Of a DNA stretch of 45,991 nt, positions 1 to 45,991 are shown in pieces. Within the stretch, counting starts at the first letter, position 1; each line of letters opens with the position of its first letter. Below the pieces are notes generated by a model that worked only from the letters and a program-made list of their open reading frames with translations, ran no database searches and was not told the DNA's origin. Made by a program: the position numbers and the translations under genes. The DNA comes from a virus: positions 1-45,991 of IMG/VR virus record IMGVR_UViG_3300046559_000642; one strand, written 5' to 3'.

Positions 1-127
1 CTGTGCAGGTGATAGAGTTGGCGCGGATTACTTTGTTGAGTTGCTTCGTATTCTGGTACCCGAGAATCTGCCACTTTCTTCGGCCGGTGCCACGAATAGT
101 GTGCCGCTCGTCAAAGTCGCTAGCACT
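1..127. repeat. Left copy of 127-bp terminal direct repeat
   Basis: These bases are identical to 45865-45991. An exact overlap between contig ends is what a circular or circularly permuted phage genome gives in short-read assembly; 127 is also a common assembler k-mer length. A genuine short terminal repeat is less likely, because the overlap falls inside a helicase gene whose reading frame is continuous when the ends are joined. Confidence 0.95.
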
Positions 128-35924: not shown

Positions 35925-36717
35925 CCTCTACTCCTTTGTAGATCATGCCCAACATGTCCGTTAGATCCGGCGCGTCGATGTGGGCTGGAAACACCCCGTT
36001 ACGATCCTTCGACACATAGCGCTCTGAGTCGCCGAGTAGCAGTCGCCGCCGAATCTCTCTGCGCGCGGTCTTACGTTTCTTATTCCTAACCACTACCTCC
36101 CTCTTCGTCATGTAGCCGATCGTTCCGACTGCAGCCTTCAGTGTCTTCTCTACTGACGGTGACACCTCCGGCCCGTAAATGATCTCACTCTCCTCGTCTT
36201 CATCATCCCCGGTTTGCTTGGCGCGAAGCTGGGCTACGAAGATGACGTTCAAGGGCAGGTTACGGAAGTTGATGATCTGAGTCCTCATCAGCTTGCCGAC
36301 CTTACCCCACGCCTGCCGAGCAGGCATGTCTGGGTCACGACTCGCGTCGCGAGCGGCCTCGTCACCCAGCACGAAATCCATGCAGATGTTCTGCAGGTTC
36401 GAGACCGTGTCGATAGCCACTGACTCGAAGTCGTGATCGCCCTCCTGGAGGAACCAGTAGGCGTCATTCACCTCGCTCCAGTACTCGATGGGCAAGAAGT
36501 GTGGGTTGATATCTCGACGGACTGAGTCTTGCCCCTTGTCGTTCACGTCCAACACCAGCACCTTCGGTGCGGATGATGCGAGGCGTGTCTTGCCTGTGCC
36601 CGAGTCTCCGTAGATCACGAAGTTCTGATTCTGCGGGAGCTCGCTCGCTAGCTTGATCTTCTTCCGTACCCTCTTGGTGATCTCAGAATGGTCAGTAGGG
36701 GTTCGACGCCTAGGCAT
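35917..36717 (-). CDS. Sak4-like RecA-fold ATPase (266 aa)
   Basis: Walker A GDSGTGKT (37-44), then VLVLDVND; ESVAIDTVSNLQ carries the Walker B-like strand, and LNVIFVAQL the sensor strand. Layout matches phage nucleotide-binding single-strand annealing or recombinase proteins (Sak4/AAA_24). It lies between the ssDNA-binding candidate and the Cas4-like nuclease, the usual exonuclease-recombinase-SSB trio, interrupted here by a homing endonuclease gene. Confidence 0.8.
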   Translation of the reverse strand: MPRRRTPTDHSEITKRVRKKIKLASELPQNQNFVIYGDSGTGKTRLASSAPKVLVLDVNDKGQDSVRRDINPHFLPIEYWSEVNDAYWFLQEGDHDFESVAIDTVSNLQNICMDFVLGDEAARDASRDPDMPARQAWGKVGKLMRTQIINFRNLPLNVIFVAQLRAKQTGDDEDEESEIIYGPEVSPSVEKTLKAAVGTIGYMTKREVVVRNKKRKTARREIRRRLLLGDSERYVSKDRNGVFPAHIDAPDLTDMLGMIYKGVEDG

Positions 36718-37093
36718 GCTTCATCAGCCTCAACTGTCCATAGTGCCATTTTCGATCTCGACCCCGTGAATCCAGTGAATCCACTAACACCTCCATTTGA
36801 CCTCGCTTGATCTTCATATATGGAGAGACGATGGAATGAAACTCAAGAACATGACCCTCGTTTGTAATCCGCCACTCGTAGCAAGTGCTTTTCTTGAAGA
36901 CCCTTCCCATCTCTAGCTTCTTTATCAACCAGTCAAGAATCATGGGATCTTTCTGAGTCACAGCTACTATCGGAAAAAATCCCGACCCGCGCTTGTTGAG
37001 ACGAACACAACCCTCACCATCAGTAAGACCTGCGATGTAAGCTGCCTCAATCCTTGAGCAGGTCGACTTCCGGGCCACTATACCTCTCTTCAT
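36710..37093 (-). CDS. LAGLIDADG homing endonuclease 1 (127 aa)
   Basis: IEAAYIAGLTDGEGCVRL is the LAGLIDADG helix with the catalytic acidic residue; one motif only, so a homodimeric enzyme. Starts inside the end of the Cas4-like nuclease gene and ends inside the start of the Sak4-like gene. ATG 37093 has no ribosome site; the in-frame GTG at 37078 follows GAGAGG and is an alternative. Likely free-standing and self-propagating. Confidence 0.8.
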   Translation of the reverse strand: MKRGIVARKSTCSRIEAAYIAGLTDGEGCVRLNKRGSGFFPIVAVTQKDPMILDWLIKKLEMGRVFKKSTCYEWRITNEGHVLEFHSIVSPYMKIKRGQMEVLVDSLDSRGRDRKWHYGQLRLMKHA

Positions 37094-38149
37094 CTGTAGT
37101 GAAGTCAGCTAGCACCAACGGTTCGATATCTAGCCCCGCAAACTCCGCCGTACACAGACTGTGGTACTCGCATCCCCATCTGCAGTTGTAGAAGTACGAG
37201 CGGGGTGCGTGACGACTCCGTCGTTGGATATCTCGGACTGTAACGATGAACTCGATGAGGGCTTGCTTGATCTTCTCATCCTCGACGGGGATGCGCTCAC
37301 GTCTGTACCACAGTACATCTCTGTCGCGCAGGGTGAGGAGCTTGTCGCGGTAAACTGCCTTGGCATAGTCCTTCCACATGTCACCATGCAGTTCCTTGAT
37401 CGCGCGGACGAAGGTGTAGTAGTCAGTGTCCGTGCGTTGCGCGACTGACAGGGTACCGTTCTTGAGCACTCTGGGGATTGTTGGGGCTTTCGTTCGCCCG
37501 TAGTCGTAGATGAACCCGCGAACGTCGTAGCCCATCCGATGACACGCCCAGACGTACATGCAGTTCTGTGGGCTCATCATCCGCTCGTCATCGTCGGGGA
37601 TGGTCTTTACCCACTTCGCGTCTCTGATCCAGAGCCCTCCGTACTCCTGATCCTGTACCATGAGGTCGAGTCGCCCCTTGAACGGGAACTCGTTGCTGAT
37701 CTTAGGAAGCTTCGATTCAACGAGGAACTCAATCGCGGGCGCGCCGTCATGTAGTGCTGCAACAGAGTATTGCTCAGCCTCTTCTTTCCAGAACCTGAGG
37801 TACCCCTTGAACAGCCGCTCGCACTCGAATGGGAGGTCACCGTATTCCTCCTTCTCCTCGTCGAAGAGCTGATCGTACTCGGCCTCGAACGAGGCGTGTA
37901 CCTCCTGCCAGGGTACGACACCTTTGATCTTAAAGCCACTCGCCTTAGCCCACTCGAGGTTGTGGGCCTGCTGTAGCGCGTGCAACCACGTGCCTCGATG
38001 AAGCTGCACCTTCTTGCGAATGGGGACCATCTCGTCACCCGGCTCGCAGTCGAAGAATCGTGGGCCATAGTCGTAGCGGAATGCGTACTGCTTCGGGGTA
38101 ACTGGCAGCGACGAAACATCTTTATTCTTGACTGATTCATCCCTGCCAT
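37047..38149 (-). CDS. Cas4/RecB-like PD-(D/E)xK nuclease, apparent frameshift
   Basis: Replication/recombination exonuclease candidate. Core motifs FKGRLDLMV and IRDAKWVK supply Asp and the Asp-x-Lys pair, and the C-terminal CRWGCEYHSLC supplies three iron-sulphur cysteines. The proper N-terminus, MNQSRIKMFRRCQ with the fourth cysteine, starts at ATG 38149, five bases after AGGAGG, but lies in another frame. The frames join at a C4 run (GGGG at 38095-38098 on the plus strand); one extra C, or a -1 shift there, gives RRCQLPPKQYAFRYDY. Either sequence error, programmed frameshift or recent mutation. Length after repair about 367 aa. Confidence 0.78.
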
Positions 38150-38565
38150 GGCGACCTCCTTTCTTTTGACTGTGCAGTAATACATCGGATCTTACGTGCA
38201 AGCTCTACTCGTCGAGCGAACGTTGGGGGTGAGCATAGCTTGTTGTGGTCATCTATCAACATTGCCAATTCTCGAGCGAGCATCACTCTCCGTTTCTTGA
38301 TTCTTAGATATGGACCTACATGATCTGCGAAGTGGATTACATTTTGCTTGCCCCGGATGGTTAGATGATTCCTGTAGATAGTTCCATACCCGAGAAAGTT
38401 CTGAATCTCCACAAGGATTCTAGGGTCTGATTGGGATATGGACAGATGAGGTTTCGGAGCAGGCTCATTGCCGTATGGGTTACGATTCCTTTTACGGTTG
38501 TCACTCACGTAAGTCGTCACAGAGCCTTCTCCATCGAAGAAACCGGCGATGTACCGAAAGTCCAT
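38137..38565 (-). CDS. LAGLIDADG homing endonuclease 2 (142 aa)
   Basis: YIAGFFDGEGSVTTY is the single LAGLIDADG helix; later HVGPYLRIKKRRVMLAREL matches the second half of compact homing enzymes. The ATG at 38565 is seven bases after TATAAT, so the gene seems to have its own leaderless promoter. Its 3' end overlaps the Cas4-like gene start by 13 bp. Confidence 0.82.
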   Translation of the reverse strand: MDFRYIAGFFDGEGSVTTYVSDNRKRNRNPYGNEPAPKPHLSISQSDPRILVEIQNFLGYGTIYRNHLTIRGKQNVIHFADHVGPYLRIKKRRVMLARELAMLIDDHNKLCSPPTFARRVELARKIRCITAQSKERRSPWQG

Positions 38566-38581: not shown

Positions 38582-38725
38582 CTTTAACGAGGACTTTGGA
38601 ATACGCCAAACCCGGCCTACTTTTACAGCAATCAATCGCCCCTCTCTACACCAACGTGCAATAGTACGAGGTTGAAGAGAAAAGTAATCAGCCACCTCAC
38701 GTGGTGTAAGTAACCTATCCTTCAT
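38579..38725 (-). CDS. Excisionase/MerR-like DNA-binding protein (48 aa)
   Basis: The ATG at 38725 overlaps the polymerase stop as ATGA. LLTPREVADYFSLQPRTIARWCREGRLIAVKVGRVWRIP is a textbook HTH_17/excisionase domain occupying the whole protein. A longer in-frame reading into the polymerase gene is rejected. Could be a transcription or recombination accessory factor. Confidence 0.78.
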   Translation of the reverse strand: MKDRLLTPREVADYFSLQPRTIARWCREGRLIAVKVGRVWRIPKSSLK

Positions 38726-41169
38726 ACCCCGATCCCTAGCCCGCTTGCATCCGGAGTACCTGTCCAGTGTTGATCCCATTCTACCTCTACCTCGATAGGA
38801 ATGTCGATGTCCGCGCCGAAAGTCTTCTTGAGGGGGAGGTTCTCCATCGTTTCTTTGACCACAGATGCGACCTCTGTGACCACTTCCTCCCGAACCTGTA
38901 GAAAGACAGCGTCATGGAGTGTCCCGACGAGGAATGCCGAACGTGGGTCAAGCTGAGGTTGAAGCTGTACCATGGAGAACAGCATAAGATCCGATGCAGT
39001 CGCCTGTACGGGGGAGTTGATCGCTTGTCTCTCTGCCTCCATACGCACACCGTTATCCGACGAGAGGATATCCGGCAGATGTCGTATCCGACCGAGCGGG
39101 GAGACAACACGGTGATAGTTATGGGCCACCCTTTTCTGACGATCATGCCATGCCTCCAGGTCGCGGAACATGCTGAAGTATTTCTGCCGTGCCACTTCTG
39201 CCTCAGCCATCGTAACTTCCACGCCGTAGTTCTCAAACGCATAGGCCTGGAACTTCTTCGGGTACATGCCGTACAGGAACCCGAAGTTGACAGCCTTCGC
39301 AAGCTTCCTCTCTTCCTTCGTTACATCCTGTGGTAGCTTGCCTGTGAGTGATGCTGCCATCGCTAGGTGGAGGTCCTCACCCGTAAGAAACGCGCGCCGC
39401 ATACGTCGATCCTTCGACACATGGGCTGCGATGCGGAGCTCTATCTGCGAGTAGTCAGCCTGCATAAAGACCCACCCTGGTGGCGCACCGATAATGCTAC
39501 GAATCCAGTGATCTCGAGGCACTTGCTGCAGGTCACCTGATAGCCGACCCGTGACTGTGCCGTACAACTTGTACGTGGTGTGGAGACGACTCCGCGCATC
39601 AAGCTTACCTGACCAGGGCAGGAGGTACGTGTTCATCCACTTCAGCTGAAGGGTCCGATATTCCAGAAGTGCTTTGATCGCTGGATGATCGTGGTAGTGA
39701 AGTAGGACTGCTTCCTTGGTCGACGGTGCTCCACTCTTCGTGATCTCGAGAGGGGAAAGCCCAAGCCCTCGCTTAGAGAAAAGCCAGCGCCCAAGTTGCT
39801 GCGTGCTGTTGAAGTTGAACGGCTCTCCCTTCGCATCCACTTGCATAGACTTCGGAAGATTCTCAATGAGCACCTCCTTTCGCTCGTTGATCTCTCCTTG
39901 TAGCGTCGCCATCCTCGGGAACAGGCGCTTCTGATCAACGTACATTCCCGCTGCCTCAACCTGCTGGATCACATGCGAGGCTGGCATCAACAACTTAGCG
40001 AACAGTCGAGTAAGGCGAGGATTCTCCAGCAACTCCTCGCGCAATCGTGGGTAAATCTGATGAGTGTACCCGACGTCTGCTCCGTTGTAGGTGCAGATCT
40101 TCTTCAGTGGCTCCTTCATGATCTTGTCGGGCTTGAGTTCAACCATGCCCTTGTAGACGTCAGCACCAAGCACGTTCTGACTGAGGAAACCGAGGTTCTT
40201 CGGTCGGTTCTCGTCTAGCAAGTGCGCAGCCAGCATAATGTCGAACCGATGCTCTAGGAAGACTCCGGCTCCGGCAAGCTGCTGGTTGTCGTGCTTTCCG
40301 TTCTGTGCGGTAAGCTTAAGATCTGGTCTCGCAAGTGCCCGGCCAAGATGCCGTACAACCTCAATCCATCGCTTCCTGAATGGGGACTCTGGATGAGATA
40401 GAGGTACAACGTAAGTGGTAGCTCCGTCCCAGGATATGCCGAGGCAAACAATATCCCACTCCTTCTCCCACGGACGACCTCTGTTCTCCACGTCGTAGGC
40501 GACCATGGTTTTTGGCGGAAGCGCTCGAACTCGGCGCGTGAGCCAGTTGACTCCCTCGACCGTATTGACATACTTACTCCTCACGGGGACGACTTGGAAC
40601 TCGCCACGAATCATGCGAGCGAAGCGCTTCACGTCTTCAGCCAGCGTCGAGTGCTGTCCAGGGTTGCGAAGGATGTATGCGGGGTGGAACGTGGCCATGA
40701 CTTCACGATGCGACCACAGTGGATCTTTGATATCTAGCCTCACACCTCGCTTGGCAGTGATACCTGACTTCTTAGCCACCGCCTGCAGCGCAGCATTCCC
40801 CAAGAGAAGGACCCACTTCGGATCAACAACCTTGGCTTCGCGCTCAAGGTAGATGCGGCACGACTCAAACTCAACTCGGTCAGGTCTACGATTCTCTGGC
40901 GGTCGACACTTGACAGCGTTGGTGACATATACAGCCTCACGGTCAAGACCTGCCTCGCTGAGTAGTGAATCGAGTAGCTTACCCGATCGTCCGGAGAAAA
41001 CTCTTCCAGTTTCAGCTTCGTATTCACCTGGGGCCTCCCCTATGACCATGATGCTTTTCTTCGGGTTGCCCGACCCCATTACGCACACCCGATCTGTGGT
41101 TTCGTGCAGAGGACACCGCTCACAGTCGTGGTCAGCGAGTCTGTCAAGCGGAGACTTATACATCCTCAT
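38722..41169 (-). CDS. Uracil-DNA glycosylase / DNA polymerase A fusion (815 aa)
   Basis: Residues 1-190 are a family 4 uracil-DNA glycosylase: C16 and C19, C88 and C104 for a 4Fe-4S cluster, GEAPGEYE (44-51), TNAVKCRPPENR, and FHPAYILRNP (161-170). Then a 3'-5' exonuclease-like region (AYDVEN, D226/E228) and a family A polymerase: motif A ADYSQIELR with D572, motif B NFGFLYG with F629 at the position equivalent to E. coli F762, motif C LHDAVF with D753. Main replicative polymerase; the fused glycosylase could scan the template for uracil. Fe-S and catalytic residues are intact as read. Confidence 0.93.
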   Translation of the reverse strand: MRMYKSPLDRLADHDCERCPLHETTDRVCVMGSGNPKKSIMVIGEAPGEYEAETGRVFSGRSGKLLDSLLSEAGLDREAVYVTNAVKCRPPENRRPDRVEFESCRIYLEREAKVVDPKWVLLLGNAALQAVAKKSGITAKRGVRLDIKDPLWSHREVMATFHPAYILRNPGQHSTLAEDVKRFARMIRGEFQVVPVRSKYVNTVEGVNWLTRRVRALPPKTMVAYDVENRGRPWEKEWDIVCLGISWDGATTYVVPLSHPESPFRKRWIEVVRHLGRALARPDLKLTAQNGKHDNQQLAGAGVFLEHRFDIMLAAHLLDENRPKNLGFLSQNVLGADVYKGMVELKPDKIMKEPLKKICTYNGADVGYTHQIYPRLREELLENPRLTRLFAKLLMPASHVIQQVEAAGMYVDQKRLFPRMATLQGEINERKEVLIENLPKSMQVDAKGEPFNFNSTQQLGRWLFSKRGLGLSPLEITKSGAPSTKEAVLLHYHDHPAIKALLEYRTLQLKWMNTYLLPWSGKLDARSRLHTTYKLYGTVTGRLSGDLQQVPRDHWIRSIIGAPPGWVFMQADYSQIELRIAAHVSKDRRMRRAFLTGEDLHLAMAASLTGKLPQDVTKEERKLAKAVNFGFLYGMYPKKFQAYAFENYGVEVTMAEAEVARQKYFSMFRDLEAWHDRQKRVAHNYHRVVSPLGRIRHLPDILSSDNGVRMEAERQAINSPVQATASDLMLFSMVQLQPQLDPRSAFLVGTLHDAVFLQVREEVVTEVASVVKETMENLPLKKTFGADIDIPIEVEVEWDQHWTGTPDASGLGIGV

Positions 41170-41371
41170 CTTCCTCTGGCGCTAGGTCGTAGAGTGCGAT
41201 TGACTGCCCGCCCTCGAGGTCTACAAGTTTGATCTTACCCTGAGCCGCGACGACAGTCTGCTTAAGGCAGGCCTCGAACAGCGCATGAGTTATCGTAAGC
41301 CAGGGTTGAACGAGCATCTCGTCTTCAATCTCGACGACGCATCGGAACCAGGCTACCCGACGATCAGCCAT
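41156..41371 (-). CDS. Hypothetical protein (71 aa)
   Basis: Overlaps the polymerase start by 14 bp. Beta-rich start (VAWFRCVVEIEDEMLV), then a helix and acidic tail (LAPEEDEDV). No recognised family; possible small partner of the polymerase from position only. Confidence 0.6.
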   Translation of the reverse strand: MADRRVAWFRCVVEIEDEMLVQPWLTITHALFEACLKQTVVAAQGKIKLVDLEGGQSIALYDLAPEEDEDV

Positions 41372-41897
41372 GGAACCCCTGCTGTACGCAGCCGATACCA
41401 GCGAGTCGGAGAAGTTCGATGCCCGCTGGATCGCGGTACCCCTCTTCGTAGTACACGCGCCGTACCCCTGCAGCGATCAGGAGCTTTGCACATGTGTCGC
41501 ATGGGGCGACAGTCACGAACAGTATGCTGTTGTCTGTAGAGATGCCCTGACGCGCTGCGAAAGCGAGTGCGTTCGCTTCTGCATGAGTCGCATTGCGACA
41601 CCCATGCTCGTTGAGCATCTCACTCTCTATGAGTTGTACGTCCTCGGGATACAAATTCTCCCGGGCGTCGGGCTGTAGTTGCCAGCCGTGGTTGTTCTCC
41701 CCGCAGTGAGGGGTTCCAGCGGGTGCGCCATTGAAGCCCCAGCTGATGCAGCGACCGTCGAGGATAATCACTGCACCCACCGCCTTGCGGGGGCATGTGC
41801 CGAGACGCGAGAGCTCGATCGCTACCCTCATGAATACGTCTCGCTTGAGAATGTCTCGTTGGATACCGGGAAAGCTTATGTTATCACCTTCGTTCAT
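41364..41897 (-). CDS. dCMP deaminase (177 aa)
   Basis: Converts dCMP to dUMP. ATG at 41897 with AGGAGG. Zinc site HAE at 105-107 (H105, catalytic E107) and PCDTC at 132-136 (C133, C136). GAPAGTPHCG matches the family's extra zinc/substrate loop. Length typical of T4 Cd-type enzymes. In an operon with two thymidylate-synthase-fold proteins, MazG-like and kinase genes. Confidence 0.9.
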   Translation of the reverse strand: MNEGDNISFPGIQRDILKRDVFMRVAIELSRLGTCPRKAVGAVIILDGRCISWGFNGAPAGTPHCGENNHGWQLQPDARENLYPEDVQLIESEMLNEHGCRNATHAEANALAFAARQGISTDNSILFVTVAPCDTCAKLLIAAGVRRVYYEEGYRDPAGIELLRLAGIGCVQQGFHG

Positions 41898-42096
41898 TGA
41901 GCCTCCTAATCTTGTTCTTTGCCTCGACTTCGTGCTCAACGAAATCTCTACCATCGAAGGCATTGTGGGTTATGTGCTGAACGGTATCACCATCTGCCTT
42001 ATTGCCCGGGTACTCGATCGTAGGTCCGCAAGCACAGTCTGCGCATAGCGAGTGCTCGGCTGAGTCATCTATCGGGATGGTGTGAAGCCGACCCAC
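41884..42096 (-). CDS. Small conserved phage protein (70 aa)
   Basis: GTG at 42096 follows GGAGA; an ATG at 42114 is an alternative. Sequence LHTIPIDDSAEHSLCADCACGP...THNAFDGRDF has the His-x-x-Pro / Cys-x-Cys-x-Pro / His-Asn-x-x-Asp-Gly-Arg pattern seen repeatedly in phage hypothetical proteins, perhaps metal-binding. Overlaps the deaminase start by 14 bp. Confidence 0.65.
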   Translation of the reverse strand: MGRLHTIPIDDSAEHSLCADCACGPTIEYPGNKADGDTVQHITHNAFDGRDFVEHEVEAKNKIRRLNERR

Positions 42097-42919
42097 GTTT
42101 CTCCAACCGCTCATAGCAATGCAGGTCTCCTTTGTGGACGTGGAATGAGTACGCAGTGAAGTGCAGAAAGCCCGGCTTGACGCCTGCCCATGAATCCTCT
42201 CGACTGACCCAGATCAACTCGTTCAGCACCCACTGGCACAAGCGCACTGCCATGTAGACGTCGTCGCGGAAGTGTCGTACCGCGTCGCAAGATCGCATCG
42301 GGTACCATAGGTGTAGGCTGTCTCCGCGTCTGAGGAAGTGGTAGTGTAGCGTGCAGGGTACACGACCGCCGTGCACTGCGCCTGTGTCTTCGGGGAAGAA
42401 GATCGGGAACGTAGCCTGCCTCGTGAACGGATGCTTGCGCAGGAGGTTGACCACATCGTCAAGGTCACCGTACTTGTACCGAGTTCCCAGATGAGCTCCC
42501 TCACTTGGGTACGGACTACCTGCATACTTCGGCCAGAAGCGCTCCTGGTATGTGTGAGAGAACTTGGGCTTAGCACCCTCATCCCCCATTGCTGGGTGCC
42601 TGTCAAACGCCGACACTTGCCCCACCCACCAGGGCCAGTTCTTGTACTGCTCGCCGGGGTTGCTGGGTACGCGGGACACTCGCTCCTGGAAGTGATCCTC
42701 TGCCCAGGGTAGGTTGGGGTCGCACTGTAACTGGGCGTCGTGGAAGTCCCAAGGCATCATTGCTGTCCAGCGCAGGTTCATCATCTCCATCGTCACCAGG
42801 TCAGGCTTGCCCTCTGTGGACACACCCTGCCAATGCCCTGTATCTACCTCGTCCCCGTACAATCTGAGCTCATCGAGGCTGAGGAGGATCGCGTTGCCTA
42901 CAGAGTCGAACGTCTCCAT
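42065..42919 (-). CDS. Thymidylate-synthase-fold protein A, possible dCMP hydroxymethylase (284 aa)
   Basis: The ATG at 42919 overlaps the upstream stop as TGATG. RVPCTLHYHF carries the nucleophilic cysteine (C189), LHLWYPMRSCD aligns with the LxYQRSxD motif of thymidylate synthase (R209, D212), and D220 falls exactly 31 residues after the cysteine, the position of E. coli Asn177; this Asn is Asp in T4 dCMP hydroxymethylase. PFTRQ (R167) aligns with the phosphate-binding arginine loop. The His-x-Tyr segment is changed (AYSFHVH). Transfers a one-carbon unit to a pyrimidine nucleotide; dCMP specificity is inferred from the Asp. Confidence 0.75.
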   Translation of the reverse strand: METFDSVGNAILLSLDELRLYGDEVDTGHWQGVSTEGKPDLVTMEMMNLRWTAMMPWDFHDAQLQCDPNLPWAEDHFQERVSRVPSNPGEQYKNWPWWVGQVSAFDRHPAMGDEGAKPKFSHTYQERFWPKYAGSPYPSEGAHLGTRYKYGDLDDVVNLLRKHPFTRQATFPIFFPEDTGAVHGGRVPCTLHYHFLRRGDSLHLWYPMRSCDAVRHFRDDVYMAVRLCQWVLNELIWVSREDSWAGVKPGFLHFTAYSFHVHKGDLHCYERLEKRGSASHHPDR

Positions 42920-43746
42920 CACGGTCGTCCTTTCAGTGGTTGCCAGGTCAGGTCCTTGACGGTCACTGTGGGCAGGAACTCCTCGCGCTGGAACTCAGCA
43001 TACCGCCTCATTACCCGCTTCAGCGGGCCGTACTTGTTGTCCGTGATACCTGCCTCGTGGAACTCCTTGATCTTGTCGTACCACTTACCCACTAGCTTCA
43101 TCGTGGGGTAGTTCGCTCGCATGTCAGGTTCTTCGAGGTCAGCGATGTACTCGTGCTTGTAGAGCATCGGCAGTGACTTGAACCCGTGGAACTGAAGCGC
43201 GTCTACGTGCCACCGAAAAGCAAACTCCTCAGGTGTAATTCCCACCCGTTGCCCGATACTCCTCGCGAGGACGTAGGCAAGTGCAAGATCAAGTCCGCCG
43301 ATGTAGGCAATATAGGAAACTCGACTATGAAGGACCAGCGTAGGAGTTTCGCGTCGAACATTACCGCGATACGTAAAGGCCAGCATACAGTTACCCCACC
43401 GGTGGCGTTTGCTATAGCGCTCGACGTTGCGGGCGAACATCGTAGTACAAGCGCCCTTTGCACCCTGCCCGTTCGCAAGCTCTTCAGTCTTACGTAGGAA
43501 CCGCAAAAGCTCATCCTTTTCGACATAGTCCCTCACTAACTTGGTCCATCGCTGCTTGTTGAGCCAGAGATCACGGCCCATATCGAGGTCGAATGCCATG
43601 CTGTCGCAGCTCAGGACGTTGTCGTAGCTGATGGTGTCTGCTGACCCGACGAGGTCAAGCACACCGTTGGAGAGTGTGCCGTTCCACATCTTGTATATCC
43701 CGCCTCGCCACAGTGTGGAAAGGTCGGGGTAATCTTCGCGGATCAC
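42919..43746 (-). CDS. Thymidylate-synthase-fold protein B (275 aa)
   Basis: GTG at 43746 overlaps the upstream stop (GTGA) and has GGAG before it. WGNCMLAFTY gives a cysteine (C120) in the nucleophile position; TLVLHSRVSYIAYIGGLDLALAY aligns with the LYQRS...GLPFNIAFYA stretch, with R142 and again Asp (D153) where synthases have Asn. The usual dimer-arginine loop reads GAKGA instead of SRR, so it may need a partner. Tandem and coupled with protein A; a heterodimer is possible. More divergent than A. Confidence 0.65.
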   Translation of the reverse strand: MIREDYPDLSTLWRGGIYKMWNGTLSNGVLDLVGSADTISYDNVLSCDSMAFDLDMGRDLWLNKQRWTKLVRDYVEKDELLRFLRKTEELANGQGAKGACTTMFARNVERYSKRHRWGNCMLAFTYRGNVRRETPTLVLHSRVSYIAYIGGLDLALAYVLARSIGQRVGITPEEFAFRWHVDALQFHGFKSLPMLYKHEYIADLEEPDMRANYPTMKLVGKWYDKIKEFHEAGITDNKYGPLKRVMRRYAEFQREEFLPTVTVKDLTWQPLKGRP

Positions 43747-43883
43747 TTCTGCTCCAGCACTTTCACTTGCGCGGGTGTGAAGCCTGGAGTCTTGCACTTA
43801 CACCTCTGCGTGTGGCAGATGCCGTTGGTGTGGAGCTTCATCGAGTGACCGCAGTGGATACATAGGGAGTTAGCAGCGGTCAT
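43743..43883 (-). CDS. Small Cys/His zinc protein (46 aa)
   Basis: The ATG at 43883 and the stop both sit in ATGA/GTGA overlaps. CIHCGHSMKLH and CHTQRCKC supply at least five cysteines and several histidines, enough for one or two zinc sites. No recognised family. Confidence 0.65.
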   Translation of the reverse strand: MTAANSLCIHCGHSMKLHTNGICHTQRCKCKTPGFTPAQVKVLEQK

Positions 43884-44233
43884 ATCGTCCGCCCGTCGTG
43901 CGGGTACTTGACCCAGTCACGCTGCTTGACTGAGGCCCAGACCTCGTTGAGGACCTCATCCAGAACGAACCCTCTGTGGTGTGCGATGCCGAGCATGAAG
44001 ATGATGAGGTCAGCGCACGCATCCTCGATCTCTGCTTCGTGATCGACGCCGTCACTTCGAATGCCCTGCCTCTCCTTGAGGAGGTGATGAGCTAGCTCAC
44101 CCATCTCTTCAACCATCCCGGTGAACGAGTCCTCGATCGTGTTGAGTGGAAAGTTGTGGGCCACCCACTCATCGCGTTCAGCCTGGATGGTACTTAGCGA
44201 ATTGAGGCTAGTCTTTCCAGCAGTCTCTCCCAT
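43880..44233 (-). CDS. MazG-like nucleotide pyrophosphatase (117 aa)
   Basis: ATG at 44233 with AGGAGGAAGC. EEMGE (42-46) and EIEDACAD (68-75) form the EExxE...ExxD magnesium site of all-alpha NTP pyrophosphatases. Removes pyrophosphate from a nucleoside triphosphate. Next to the thymidylate-synthase-fold pair, a dCTPase/dUTPase role like T4 gp56 is an attractive inference; a general MazG housekeeping role cannot be excluded. Confidence 0.8.
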   Translation of the reverse strand: MGETAGKTSLNSLSTIQAERDEWVAHNFPLNTIEDSFTGMVEEMGELAHHLLKERQGIRSDGVDHEAEIEDACADLIIFMLGIAHHRGFVLDEVLNEVWASVKQRDWVKYPHDGRTI

Positions 44234-44751
44234 GCTTCCTCCTCGGTGTAGTCGTAGGTCATCACGTTGTCGTAGAGCGCGTTCGCCCACATACCATAGT
44301 AGGCGTGGTACTGATTGCTGATCTTCAGGAGCTGGTCGTCGGCTACACCTTTGAGGCGCGAACGATCAGCCGCCGTGACGTTGGCGAGCTGAACCTCAAA
44401 CGGTGGGAGGCAGAAGATGATGATGGGCTCGACGCCCCACAGCCTCATAATCCCTCGACGCGTGTCCTCGGATGGGACGAGTAGCCCACGCCATGGCTGG
44501 GCCTGCTGATAGATCGGGTCGGAGATGTAGAAGCACCGGTCGTAGACATTCCCACCGAGGTCGAGTGATGACTTGCCGAGCTGTGAGTCCCACCACTCAA
44601 CGAGGCCAATACCACCAGGCCCGCCTGTGGATGAGAGGTCTTCTTCTGAGGGTCGGCAGTAGACACGTTCGAGTTTCTCACACAGGTCCTTGGCGACGGT
44701 CGTTTTGCCTCCACCATCGGGGCCCTCTACGATGATCGGGAGGTCAACCAC
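44194..44751 (-). CDS. P-loop deoxynucleoside monophosphate kinase (185 aa)
   Basis: GTG at 44751 overlapping the upstream stop. Walker A EGPDGGGKTT (9-18), then YDRCFYISDPIYQ, the Asp-Arg pair and nucleotide-binding loop of thymidylate kinase-like enzymes, and a lid region with AADRSRLKG. Phosphorylates a dNMP; in this operon dTMP or a modified dCMP are candidates. Its end overlaps the MazG-like gene by 40 bp. Confidence 0.8.
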   Translation of the reverse strand: MVDLPIIVEGPDGGGKTTVAKDLCEKLERVYCRPSEEDLSSTGGPGGIGLVEWWDSQLGKSSLDLGGNVYDRCFYISDPIYQQAQPWRGLLVPSEDTRRGIMRLWGVEPIIIFCLPPFEVQLANVTAADRSRLKGVADDQLLKISNQYHAYYGMWANALYDNVMTYDYTEEEAWERLLERLASIR

Positions 44752-44944
44752 GTTCCCGCTCCGTCTGTTTGTTCTCCTCGAGGGCTGAGGACTTGCGTTC
44801 ATCACCCTCGTAGAACTCGACTGTCTTCGTCAGGACGATCGTCCCCGACGGAAGCTGGATAGCTGCGAACGGCTCTCCGCCCGCACCGCCATCATTATTG
44901 AACGTCTCGAGGGGCAATCCCCTCACTCTCCACCGCACGCTCAT
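44744..44944 (-). CDS. Hypothetical protein (66 aa)
   Basis: The ATG at 44944 overlaps the upstream stop as ATGA. Beta-rich (FAAIQLPSGTIVLTKTVEF) with a charged tail. No recognised family. Confidence 0.6.
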   Translation of the reverse strand: MSVRWRVRGLPLETFNNDGGAGGEPFAAIQLPSGTIVLTKTVEFYEGDERKSSALEENKQTERERG

Positions 44945-45180: not shown

Positions 45181-45991
45181 CCCCGAGGAACCGATGGGGG
45201 TCGCGCATCAATTCTCCGTGCCAGTCCTCTTTTTTTCGTAGCGATGCCAGAACGCGGCGATCGACGGTACCCTTAGCGAGTACGGCTGAGACCCTGACAG
45301 GGCGCTTCTGGTTCGGCCCTCGGAGTCGGTTGAGACACTGCCAGAACGCGACCCAGTCATCGGGTAGCGTTGTGAAGATACACTCAGCCGCGGCCGTAAG
45401 TTCGATGCTGAGTGATCCTGCCTGATGCTGAATGACGAGTGCGCTGGGCCTCTTGGATGACTGGAACTCTTCCAGGATTGGAGCGCGATTTCGCCTCGTG
45501 GTTCTTCCATCCAATACTTGAGTGTGATACCCCACTCGCTCCAAGCTAAGCCTTGCTGCGTCCACCTCTGCAGTGAAGCGACAGAAAACGACAACGCTTT
45601 CCCCCTGTTCGAGGAGATTAGTAGCGTAGTTTTTGAGGGCCACAGTCTTCTCTCGATGAATCTGCTCTCCGCCCGTGAGAAACCCGGAGGCAATTTGAAG
45701 TAGACGAAGTCGGAGGACACCTTGATTAGCCGCGTCAATAGCCCCATGCTCAGTGGTGACGATGTACTCCTCAGCAAGTTCATCGTATAGATCCCTCACC
45801 TTCTGTGGTAGTGTTACTGGGAGGACTTGCCAGAAGAGCTTGCCCTCGAGGCCTGCTTGTCGCGCTGTGCAGGTGATAGAGTTGGCGCGGATTACTTTGT
45901 TGAGTTGCTTCGTATTCTGGTACCCGAGAATCTGCCACTTTCTTCGGCCGGTGCCACGAATAGTGTGCCGCTCGTCAAAGTCGCTAGCACT
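45176..45991 (-). CDS. SNF2/DEAD-type helicase, C-terminal part (continues from left end)
   Basis: Helicase C domain of the protein that starts at 736. The terminal 127 bp repeat the left end, so the unique part here is 45176-45864. Visible are VVVFCRFTAEVDAARL (strand and helix of the second RecA lobe), a segment resembling motif V around QHQAGSLSIEL, and the motif VI-like FWQCLNRLRGPNQ, equivalent to the QxxxRxxRxxQ box of SNF2 proteins. It ends with a TGA that overlaps the -10-like promoter of the next gene. The split is an artefact of where the circle was opened. Confidence 0.9.
   Translation of the reverse strand, partial: SASDFDERHTIRGTGRRKWQILGYQNTKQLNKVIRANSITCTARQAGLEGKLFWQVLPVTLPQKVRDLYDELAEEYIVTTEHGAIDAANQGVLRLRLLQIASGFLTGGEQIHREKTVALKNYATNLLEQGESVVVFCRFTAEVDAARLSLERVGYHTQVLDGRTTRRNRAPILEEFQSSKRPSALVIQHQAGSLSIELTAAAECIFTTLPDDWVAFWQCLNRLRGPNQKRPVRVSAVLAKGTVDRRVLASLRKKEDWHGELMRDPHRFLGV
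45865..45991. repeat. Right copy of 127-bp terminal direct repeat
   Basis: Exact copy of positions 1-127. Collapsing the two copies gives a 45,864-bp circle and restores one uninterrupted helicase gene across the junction. Confidence 0.95.

Follow-up and report, generated by a model that had tools for sequence, protein, structure and literature searches.

Two thymidylate-synthase-fold proteins in a putative phage pathway for cytosine modification at the nucleotide level

The IMG/VR virus record IMGVR_UViG_3300046559_000642 (45,991 nucleotides, analysed at its full length and referred to here as the window) encodes two adjoining proteins of the thymidylate synthase (TS) fold, called A and B in the following, in one gene module with a deoxynucleoside monophosphate (dNMP) kinase, a MazG/PRA-PH-like pyrophosphatase, a dCMP deaminase and a DNA polymerase I. 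A pathway that modifies cytosine at C5 at the precursor level is well supported, and we consider it likely that it is a nucleotide-level pathway with two TS-fold enzymes of the dCMP type, a judgement that excludes the exact group at C5. A chemically altered form of cytosine is probably present in the phage DNA, though not clearly the one made by T4. An earlier reading made from the sequence alone (the sequence-only reading) had described the module as a T4-like gene set for hydroxymethyl-dCMP. The kinase, MazG-like and dCMP deaminase genes that it named are confirmed by Pfam and PHROG matches, and the set does follow T4 logic for cytosine modification; the hydroxymethyl product is not borne out, given Arg187 and His123 in A and Trp134 in B. 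TS, PRA-PH (PF01503), dCMP deaminase (PF00383) and MafB19 (PF14437) domains co-occur on metagenomic contigs with modified cytosine (PMC8670742), and the neighbours in the module match this MetaGPA domain set, with PF01503, PF00383 and PF14437 all present here. The T4 logic of the gene set and the same domain combination on modified-cytosine contigs together suggest that the phage makes a C5-modified dCMP precursor.

Fold and catalytic residues of A and B

Two open reading frames (ORFs) with a cysteine, an arginine motif and an aspartate at the position of Asn177 of TS had been reported in the sequence-only reading, and both are found on the minus strand, with C190, R210 and D221 in A and C137, R159 and D170 in B. 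The spacing in A (20 + 11 residues, and thus the 31 residues from Cys190 to Asp221 that had been given earlier) is identical to that of C146, R166 and N177 in E. coli ThyA. A matches the phage TS family phrog_160 (7e-22) and scores below the Pfam cut-off for TS (PF00303; 15.8 vs 24.3 bits). Its AlphaFold model has a predicted local distance difference test score (pLDDT) of 84 and retrieves the CMP 5-hydroxymethylase MilA (1e-12) in Foldseek, together with the dCMP hydroxylases 9iqc and 9iqu, TS and T4 dCMP hydroxymethylase; a profile of 38 A relatives likewise retrieves MilA, 5-hydroxy-dCMP synthase, TS and T4 dCMP hydroxymethylase from the PDB. Invariant in 119 A-family proteins are W73, E80, R81, W96, Y125, R128, R168, Q169, D179, R187, P189, C190, Y194, Y207, R210, H261 and D221, the last at the Asn177 position (119/119). 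A keeps the TS fold and the equivalents of C146, R166, Y94, D169 and H207, which places it in the TS superfamily, and lacks the C-terminal tail of TS. Three base-reading residues are of the dCMP type, namely Asp221 (N177), Thr191 (H147) and Met209 (Q165); in MetaGPA, positions 177 and 147 are those that best separate the TS proteins of modified-cytosine contigs (PMC8670742). Judged from its residues, A is a probable dCMP C5-modifying enzyme. The A family forms a clade of its own (100% support) on a long stem, neither T4-type nor 5-hydroxy-dCMP-synthase-type, with its sister left unplaced by the tree.

The assignment of A as an ordinary TS was rejected on Asp221, Thr191 and Met209 and on the canonical TS that is also present in the Microbacterium phage Huwbert and in most large-phage records. 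In Huwbert, gp68 (L062:11161-11964) is a canonical thymidylate synthase with Asn177 and Leu143 that directly adjoins A, which suggests that in this phage A does something other than normal dTMP synthesis.

B belongs to phrog_13667, a family whose function is listed as unknown (5e-36 over residues 47-267). As a single sequence it has no Pfam or PDB match, its profile has no PDB match, and no match to TS was found by sequence. From an input of 33 sequences (window and IMG/VR), AlphaFold gave a model with a pLDDT of 90.8 and a predicted template modelling score (pTM) of 0.88, for which the best Foldseek matches in the PDB are 9iqu (3e-6) and 9iqc (9e-6), followed by MilA, T4 dCMP hydroxymethylase and many TS. 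The Foldseek probability is 1.00 to TS-superfamily structures, with 81 matches at E<=0.001, and the template modelling (TM) scores are modest (<=0.60). Only four residues, Y91, C137, R159 and D170, are fully invariant in 103 diverse B sequences, and B as a pseudo-enzyme was rejected on their conservation (103/103). We map them to Y94, C146, R166 and N177 of TS, with Y91 equated to Y94 by eye from the secondary structure; the random chance of that spacing for four positions is about 5e-5. Cys137, Arg159 and Asp170 are spaced 22 + 11 (33 from Cys to Asp), and hhalign pairs them with the A residues unaided. The A/B hhalign score is 20.9 (26.7 with reference sequences added), against a maximum of 20.7 for shuffled columns. 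Because this sequence-profile match is weak, the membership of B in the TS superfamily rests on its fold and catalytic pattern. The attribution of a TS fold to both proteins therefore holds, for A through phrog_160 and its fold and for B through AlphaFold, Foldseek and the invariant residues, and phrog_13667 is, going by the predicted structure, a TS-fold family. B is annotated as 'pyrimidine hmase synthase' in two phage records, suggesting that others had glimpsed its fold.

Residues that bear on the group at C5

In T4 dCMP hydroxymethylase, hydroxymethylation is set by Asp145, three residues before the catalytic cysteine (Cys-3), together with Ser94, two residues before Tyr96 (Tyr-2), and the D145N and S94N variants are inactive (Park et al., PMC6400193). 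A does not carry this T4-type signature of Asp/Glu at Cys-3 and Ser/Thr at Tyr-2: Arg187 stands at Cys-3 in 119/119 members and His123 at Tyr-2 in 114/119, with Tyr in 5. Asp occupies Cys-3 in MilA, in SPO1 dUMP hydroxymethylase and in three further outgroup TS proteins; in enzymes of the Mosigvirus type, Glu is found at Cys-3 and Thr at Tyr-2. The Mosigvirus enzymes act as 5-hydroxy-dCMP synthases rather than as hydroxymethylases (PMC13390438); the match to 9iqc/9iqu agrees with the Mosigvirus protein across the aligned stretch. Since these synthases carry Glu and Thr, the signature appears to extend to oxygen-adding enzymes generally, and A fits neither version of it. The fuller signature of the 5-hydroxy-dCMP synthases (Glu at Cys-3, Thr at Tyr-2 and Asn at the Asp169 position) is also missing from A, which keeps Asp169. 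Asp177 only selects cytosine and is common to the 5-hydroxy-dCMP synthases too. Going by these residues, 5-hydroxymethyl-dCMP as the product of A is not supported, and the invariant Arg in place of the water-activating Asp of T4 suggests that the intermediate is resolved in another way. In B, the residue at Cys-3 is Trp134, so that B likewise is without the hydroxymethylase or hydroxylase residue there, and no folate-site residues are identifiable from its sequence.

A plain T4-like system, in which A would be a dCMP hydroxymethylase that activates water through other residues (e.g. the invariant Asp179 with Arg187), B an accessory protein and the base unglycosylated 5-hydroxymethylcytosine, is in our estimate rather unlikely. 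It agrees with the T4-like gene set and Asp177, with MilA as the best match of A by both fold and profile, and with the equivalents of W80, Y94 and R166 kept in A. However, T4 Asp145 and Ser94 are replaced in A, the D145N variant is inactive (PMC6400193), and 5-hydroxymethylcytosine needs no second TS-fold enzyme. The position of the catalytic Glu58 of E. coli TS, which corresponds to Glu60 of the T4 enzyme and serves in folate activation, speaks to both sides: a gapless alignment places His77 of A there, which is Glu in 8 of the 119 relatives (Gln in 4) but His in 107, while MAFFT and hhalign place the gap elsewhere.

A flavin-dependent dCMP 5-hydroxylase activity of A or B, with 5-hydroxycytosine or a derivative as the base, as in Mosigvirus, is unlikely. 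The absence of Glu at Cys-3 and Thr at Tyr-2 from A, the retention of Asp169 where the hydroxylase has Asn, and the Trp at Cys-3 of B all argue against it, as does the lack of a glycosyltransferase here, whereas known glycosylated systems have one. In its favour, B has 9iqu and 9iqc as its two best PDB fold matches, and A matches both entries; 9iqc is described with riboflavin and FAD. A also shares the [WY]AED helix motif of the hydroxylase, as well as its Phe at the position of Tyr209, the latter in most A-family members. We regard it as quite improbable that A is a dCMP methyltransferase of the Xp12-like kind and the DNA contains 5-methylcytosine; although the Asn177Asp change alone converts TS into a maker of 5-methyl-dCMP (PMC8670742) and the Cys-3 residue of A is non-acidic, TS has Leu at Cys-3 where A has Arg, and its C-terminal tail has no counterpart in A.

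Pairing of A and B and the proposed pathway

A was present at 122 of 123 B loci, and in the one exception (L110) the contig breaks off within the reading frame of B. The analysis included a scan of IMG/VR with two sub-alignments of B. A and B share a strand in 119/119 loci and overlap by 4 nt in 36 of 118; in the window, the stop of B and the start of A share 4 nt (GTGA). An A/B heterodimer was considered; the evidence, including this overlap, speaks neither for nor against it. Among isolates (tblastn), A has matches in 110 records. Matches to B come from 85 records of actinophages and from 17 further ones, which belong almost entirely to Proteobacteria phages and include uncultured phages; in Almagne, the ORF at the B position scores as B. 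The A/B module is carried by phages of actinobacteria and of proteobacteria, Muddy and GTE2 among them, and the isolates with both genes (>100 phages) have Gordonia, Mycobacterium, Streptomyces, Microbacterium, Curtobacterium, Serratia, Pseudomonas and Brevundimonas as hosts. The gene order is conserved as kinase, pyrophosphatase, B, A, deaminase, PolA, exonuclease and Sak4. Some phages have two B-family genes, in tandem or with the second copy downstream of A (L044:4017-5947, L124, L052:7754-8497, L068:6765-7313 and L078:4771-5319), which suggests a subfunctionalised or heteromeric B. Most of the isolate records that match A but not B are weak TS matches, e.g. GMA2 and LuckyBarnes. In the Brevibacterium phage LuckyBarnes (L082:3746-6910), a TS-like protein that combines Asn177 with an Asp at Cys-3, the dUMP hydroxymethylase pattern, is followed by two glycosyltransferase genes; on this pattern, LuckyBarnes is a candidate glycosylated-hydroxymethyluracil phage.

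Several observations weigh against a cytosine-modification pathway with two enzymes. One A clade, mostly of large phages, comprises 18 whole records (L014-L022, L026, L028, L032-L035, L037, L058 and L060) in which no B match was found by a search that had no positive control, and A can thus evidently be retained without B. Taken alone, the relation between A and B in sequence is weak, the DNA chemistry of any phage with both genes was not found in the literature searched, and the dCMP deaminase, kinase and pyrophosphatase equally fit an ordinary dTTP supply. Under an explanation by ordinary nucleotide metabolism, A would be a divergent TS for dTMP that could feed dTTP together with these three enzymes, and B a structural relic. 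Phage records do annotate A as thymidylate synthase, but Asp221 is invariant, Huwbert and most of the large-phage records with A also encode a canonical TS, and the catalytic residues of B are kept throughout, and we consider this explanation very improbable. In the clade without B, a canonical TS is present in 13/18 records, and the neighbours of A in L017 and L026 encode RNase HII, an IMPDH-like protein, a metallophosphatase and an ATP-grasp protein.

For the favoured nucleotide-level pathway, we propose the following hypothetical sequence of steps, in which (i) the pyrophosphatase removes dCTP; (ii) A, and probably B too, act on dCMP by covalent Cys-C6 catalysis and add a C5 substituent, with the Asp at the Asn177 position reading the cytosine; (iii) the kinase and host enzymes raise the modified product to the triphosphate; (iv) the polymerase with its uracil-DNA glycosylase (UDG), exonuclease and PolA parts inserts the modified nucleotide into DNA; and (v) the dCMP deaminase diverts any dCMP left unmodified towards dUMP/dTTP. 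As the leading mechanism, A would transfer a one-carbon unit or oxygen to C5 of dCMP, with the Arg187/His123 environment, in place of the Asp145-Ser94 water of T4, resolving the intermediate; B would then work covalently on this C5 group once more. That a further TS-fold enzyme is present, equipped with a Cys/Tyr/Arg/Asp set of its own, suggests either a hetero-complex or that the base is modified in a second step, so that B may act on the product of A or in complex with it, and the final base may be other than plain T4 hydroxymethylcytosine. In a more specific version, which we put forward as a tentative possibility, A and B are a two-enzyme nucleotide-level route to an undescribed cytosine base that is finished before replication and without a glycosyltransferase, in >100 known phages including Muddy: A would build a C5 group in an Arg/His-lined pocket that could hold a carboxylate-bearing donor, and a folate-free B would elaborate or exchange this group through the same Cys-adduct chemistry.

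The exact 127-bp direct repeat at the two ends of the record, with a helicase reading frame that spans the join, indicates that the genome (~45.9 kb) looks complete and circularly permuted (Table 1). In agreement with the sequence-only reading, no glucosyltransferase is found in the scanned ORFs of this apparently complete genome; the Pfam and PHROG scans of chosen ORFs, which left some short ORFs unscanned, revealed neither a glycosyltransferase nor a carbamoyltransferase. Going by its matches, the MazG/PRA-PH-like protein is a probable dCTP/dUTP-removing enzyme, and the gene at the same position is annotated as dCTP pyrophosphatase in GTE2 and as dUTPase in other phages. By synteny, the DNA polymerase I is the conserved downstream partner of the module. 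Its UDG-superfamily domain, adjoining the cytosine-modification genes, has GEAPGE and HPAYIL motifs that look intact and may serve in the removal of uracil or of deaminated modified cytosine. Two related homing-endonuclease-like ORFs (36710-37093 and 38137-38565, minus strand, both phrog_5046) lie on either side of the exonuclease gene.

Table 1. Features of the module and of the record ends, with positions in the window
Feature	Position	Strand	Details
Terminal direct repeat, left copy	1-127		contig closes to a circle; right copy 45865-45991
DNA polymerase I with N-terminal UDG-superfamily domain and 3'-5' exonuclease	38722-41169	-	PF03167 1e-35, PF01612, PF00476 2e-83
dCMP deaminase	41364-41963	-	PF00383 8e-20, PF14437 4e-12, phrog_174 7e-46
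Protein A, TS-superfamily enzyme	42065-42922	-	285 aa; C190/R210/D221, Arg187 at Cys-3, His123 at Tyr-2
Protein B, divergent TS-fold protein	42919-43797	-	292 aa; phrog_13667; AlphaFold and Foldseek; true start likely GTG at 43746
MazG/PRA-PH-like all-alpha NTP pyrophosphatase	43880-44290	-	phrog_715 8e-7, PF01503 5e-4; start likely ATG at 44233
P-loop dNMP kinase, thymidylate-kinase-like	44194-44805	-	phrog_761 4e-15; plausible start GTG at 44751, inside this longer ORF

Cytosine modification by TS-fold enzymes is of a known kind; the active-site type of A and B as a near-obligate TS-fold partner were not described in the literature searched. In isolated phages, the pair is mostly annotated as 'thymidylate synthase' and 'hypothetical protein'. 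If cytosine is modified in the phages with both genes, this would bear on their resistance to restriction and CRISPR, and B would represent a new TS-fold enzyme family and A a new active-site type. It is directly testable on phages already in collections.

Comparison with known systems

The module resembles T4, with gp42, gp56, gp1 and dCMP deaminase, in the TS fold, the Cys nucleophile, the phosphate Arg and the cytosine Asp, and in having a pyrophosphatase, a dNMP kinase and a dCMP deaminase as helpers beside the dCMP enzyme, the dCTP specificity here being predicted. It differs from T4 in that A is without equivalents of Asp145 and Ser94, its residue at the Glu60 position probably being His, and in the extra TS-fold partner B, the lack of a glucosyltransferase and the arrangement in one operon beside the UDG-PolA polymerase. 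Separately, T4 dCMP hydroxymethylase has matches in 194 Microbacterium phage records. Among the matches listed, which include the Microbacterium foliorum phages Pikmin, Eleri and Ilzat, identity is ~28-30% and the only annotation is thymidylate synthase.

MilA, the best PDB match of A by fold and profile, shares the Asp at the Asn177 position; in contrast to A, it has Asp at Cys-3, acts in a cellular antibiotic pathway and has no known B partner. A cellular TS-superfamily protein of Actinomadura harenae (L087:4578-5684), in which the residues at the Asn177 position and at Cys-3 are both Asp, resembles the MilA pattern. The 5-hydroxy-dCMP synthase (9iqu/9iqc, Mosigvirus) is the best PDB fold match of B and is like A in its TS fold, its Cys and Asp177, a similar helix motif and, probably, a catalytic Glu58 that is not kept. 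The synthase differs in its Glu at Cys-3 and Thr at Tyr-2, where A has Arg and His and where the Cys-3 residue of B is Trp134, and it falls in a clade separate from that of A. Compared with the MetaGPA module (PMC8670742), A lies under the PF00303 cut-off, no carbamoyltransferase is present and B falls outside the MetaGPA set; what the two have in common is a TS with Asp177, PRA-PH, dCMP deaminase and MafB19, there on contigs with modified cytosine.

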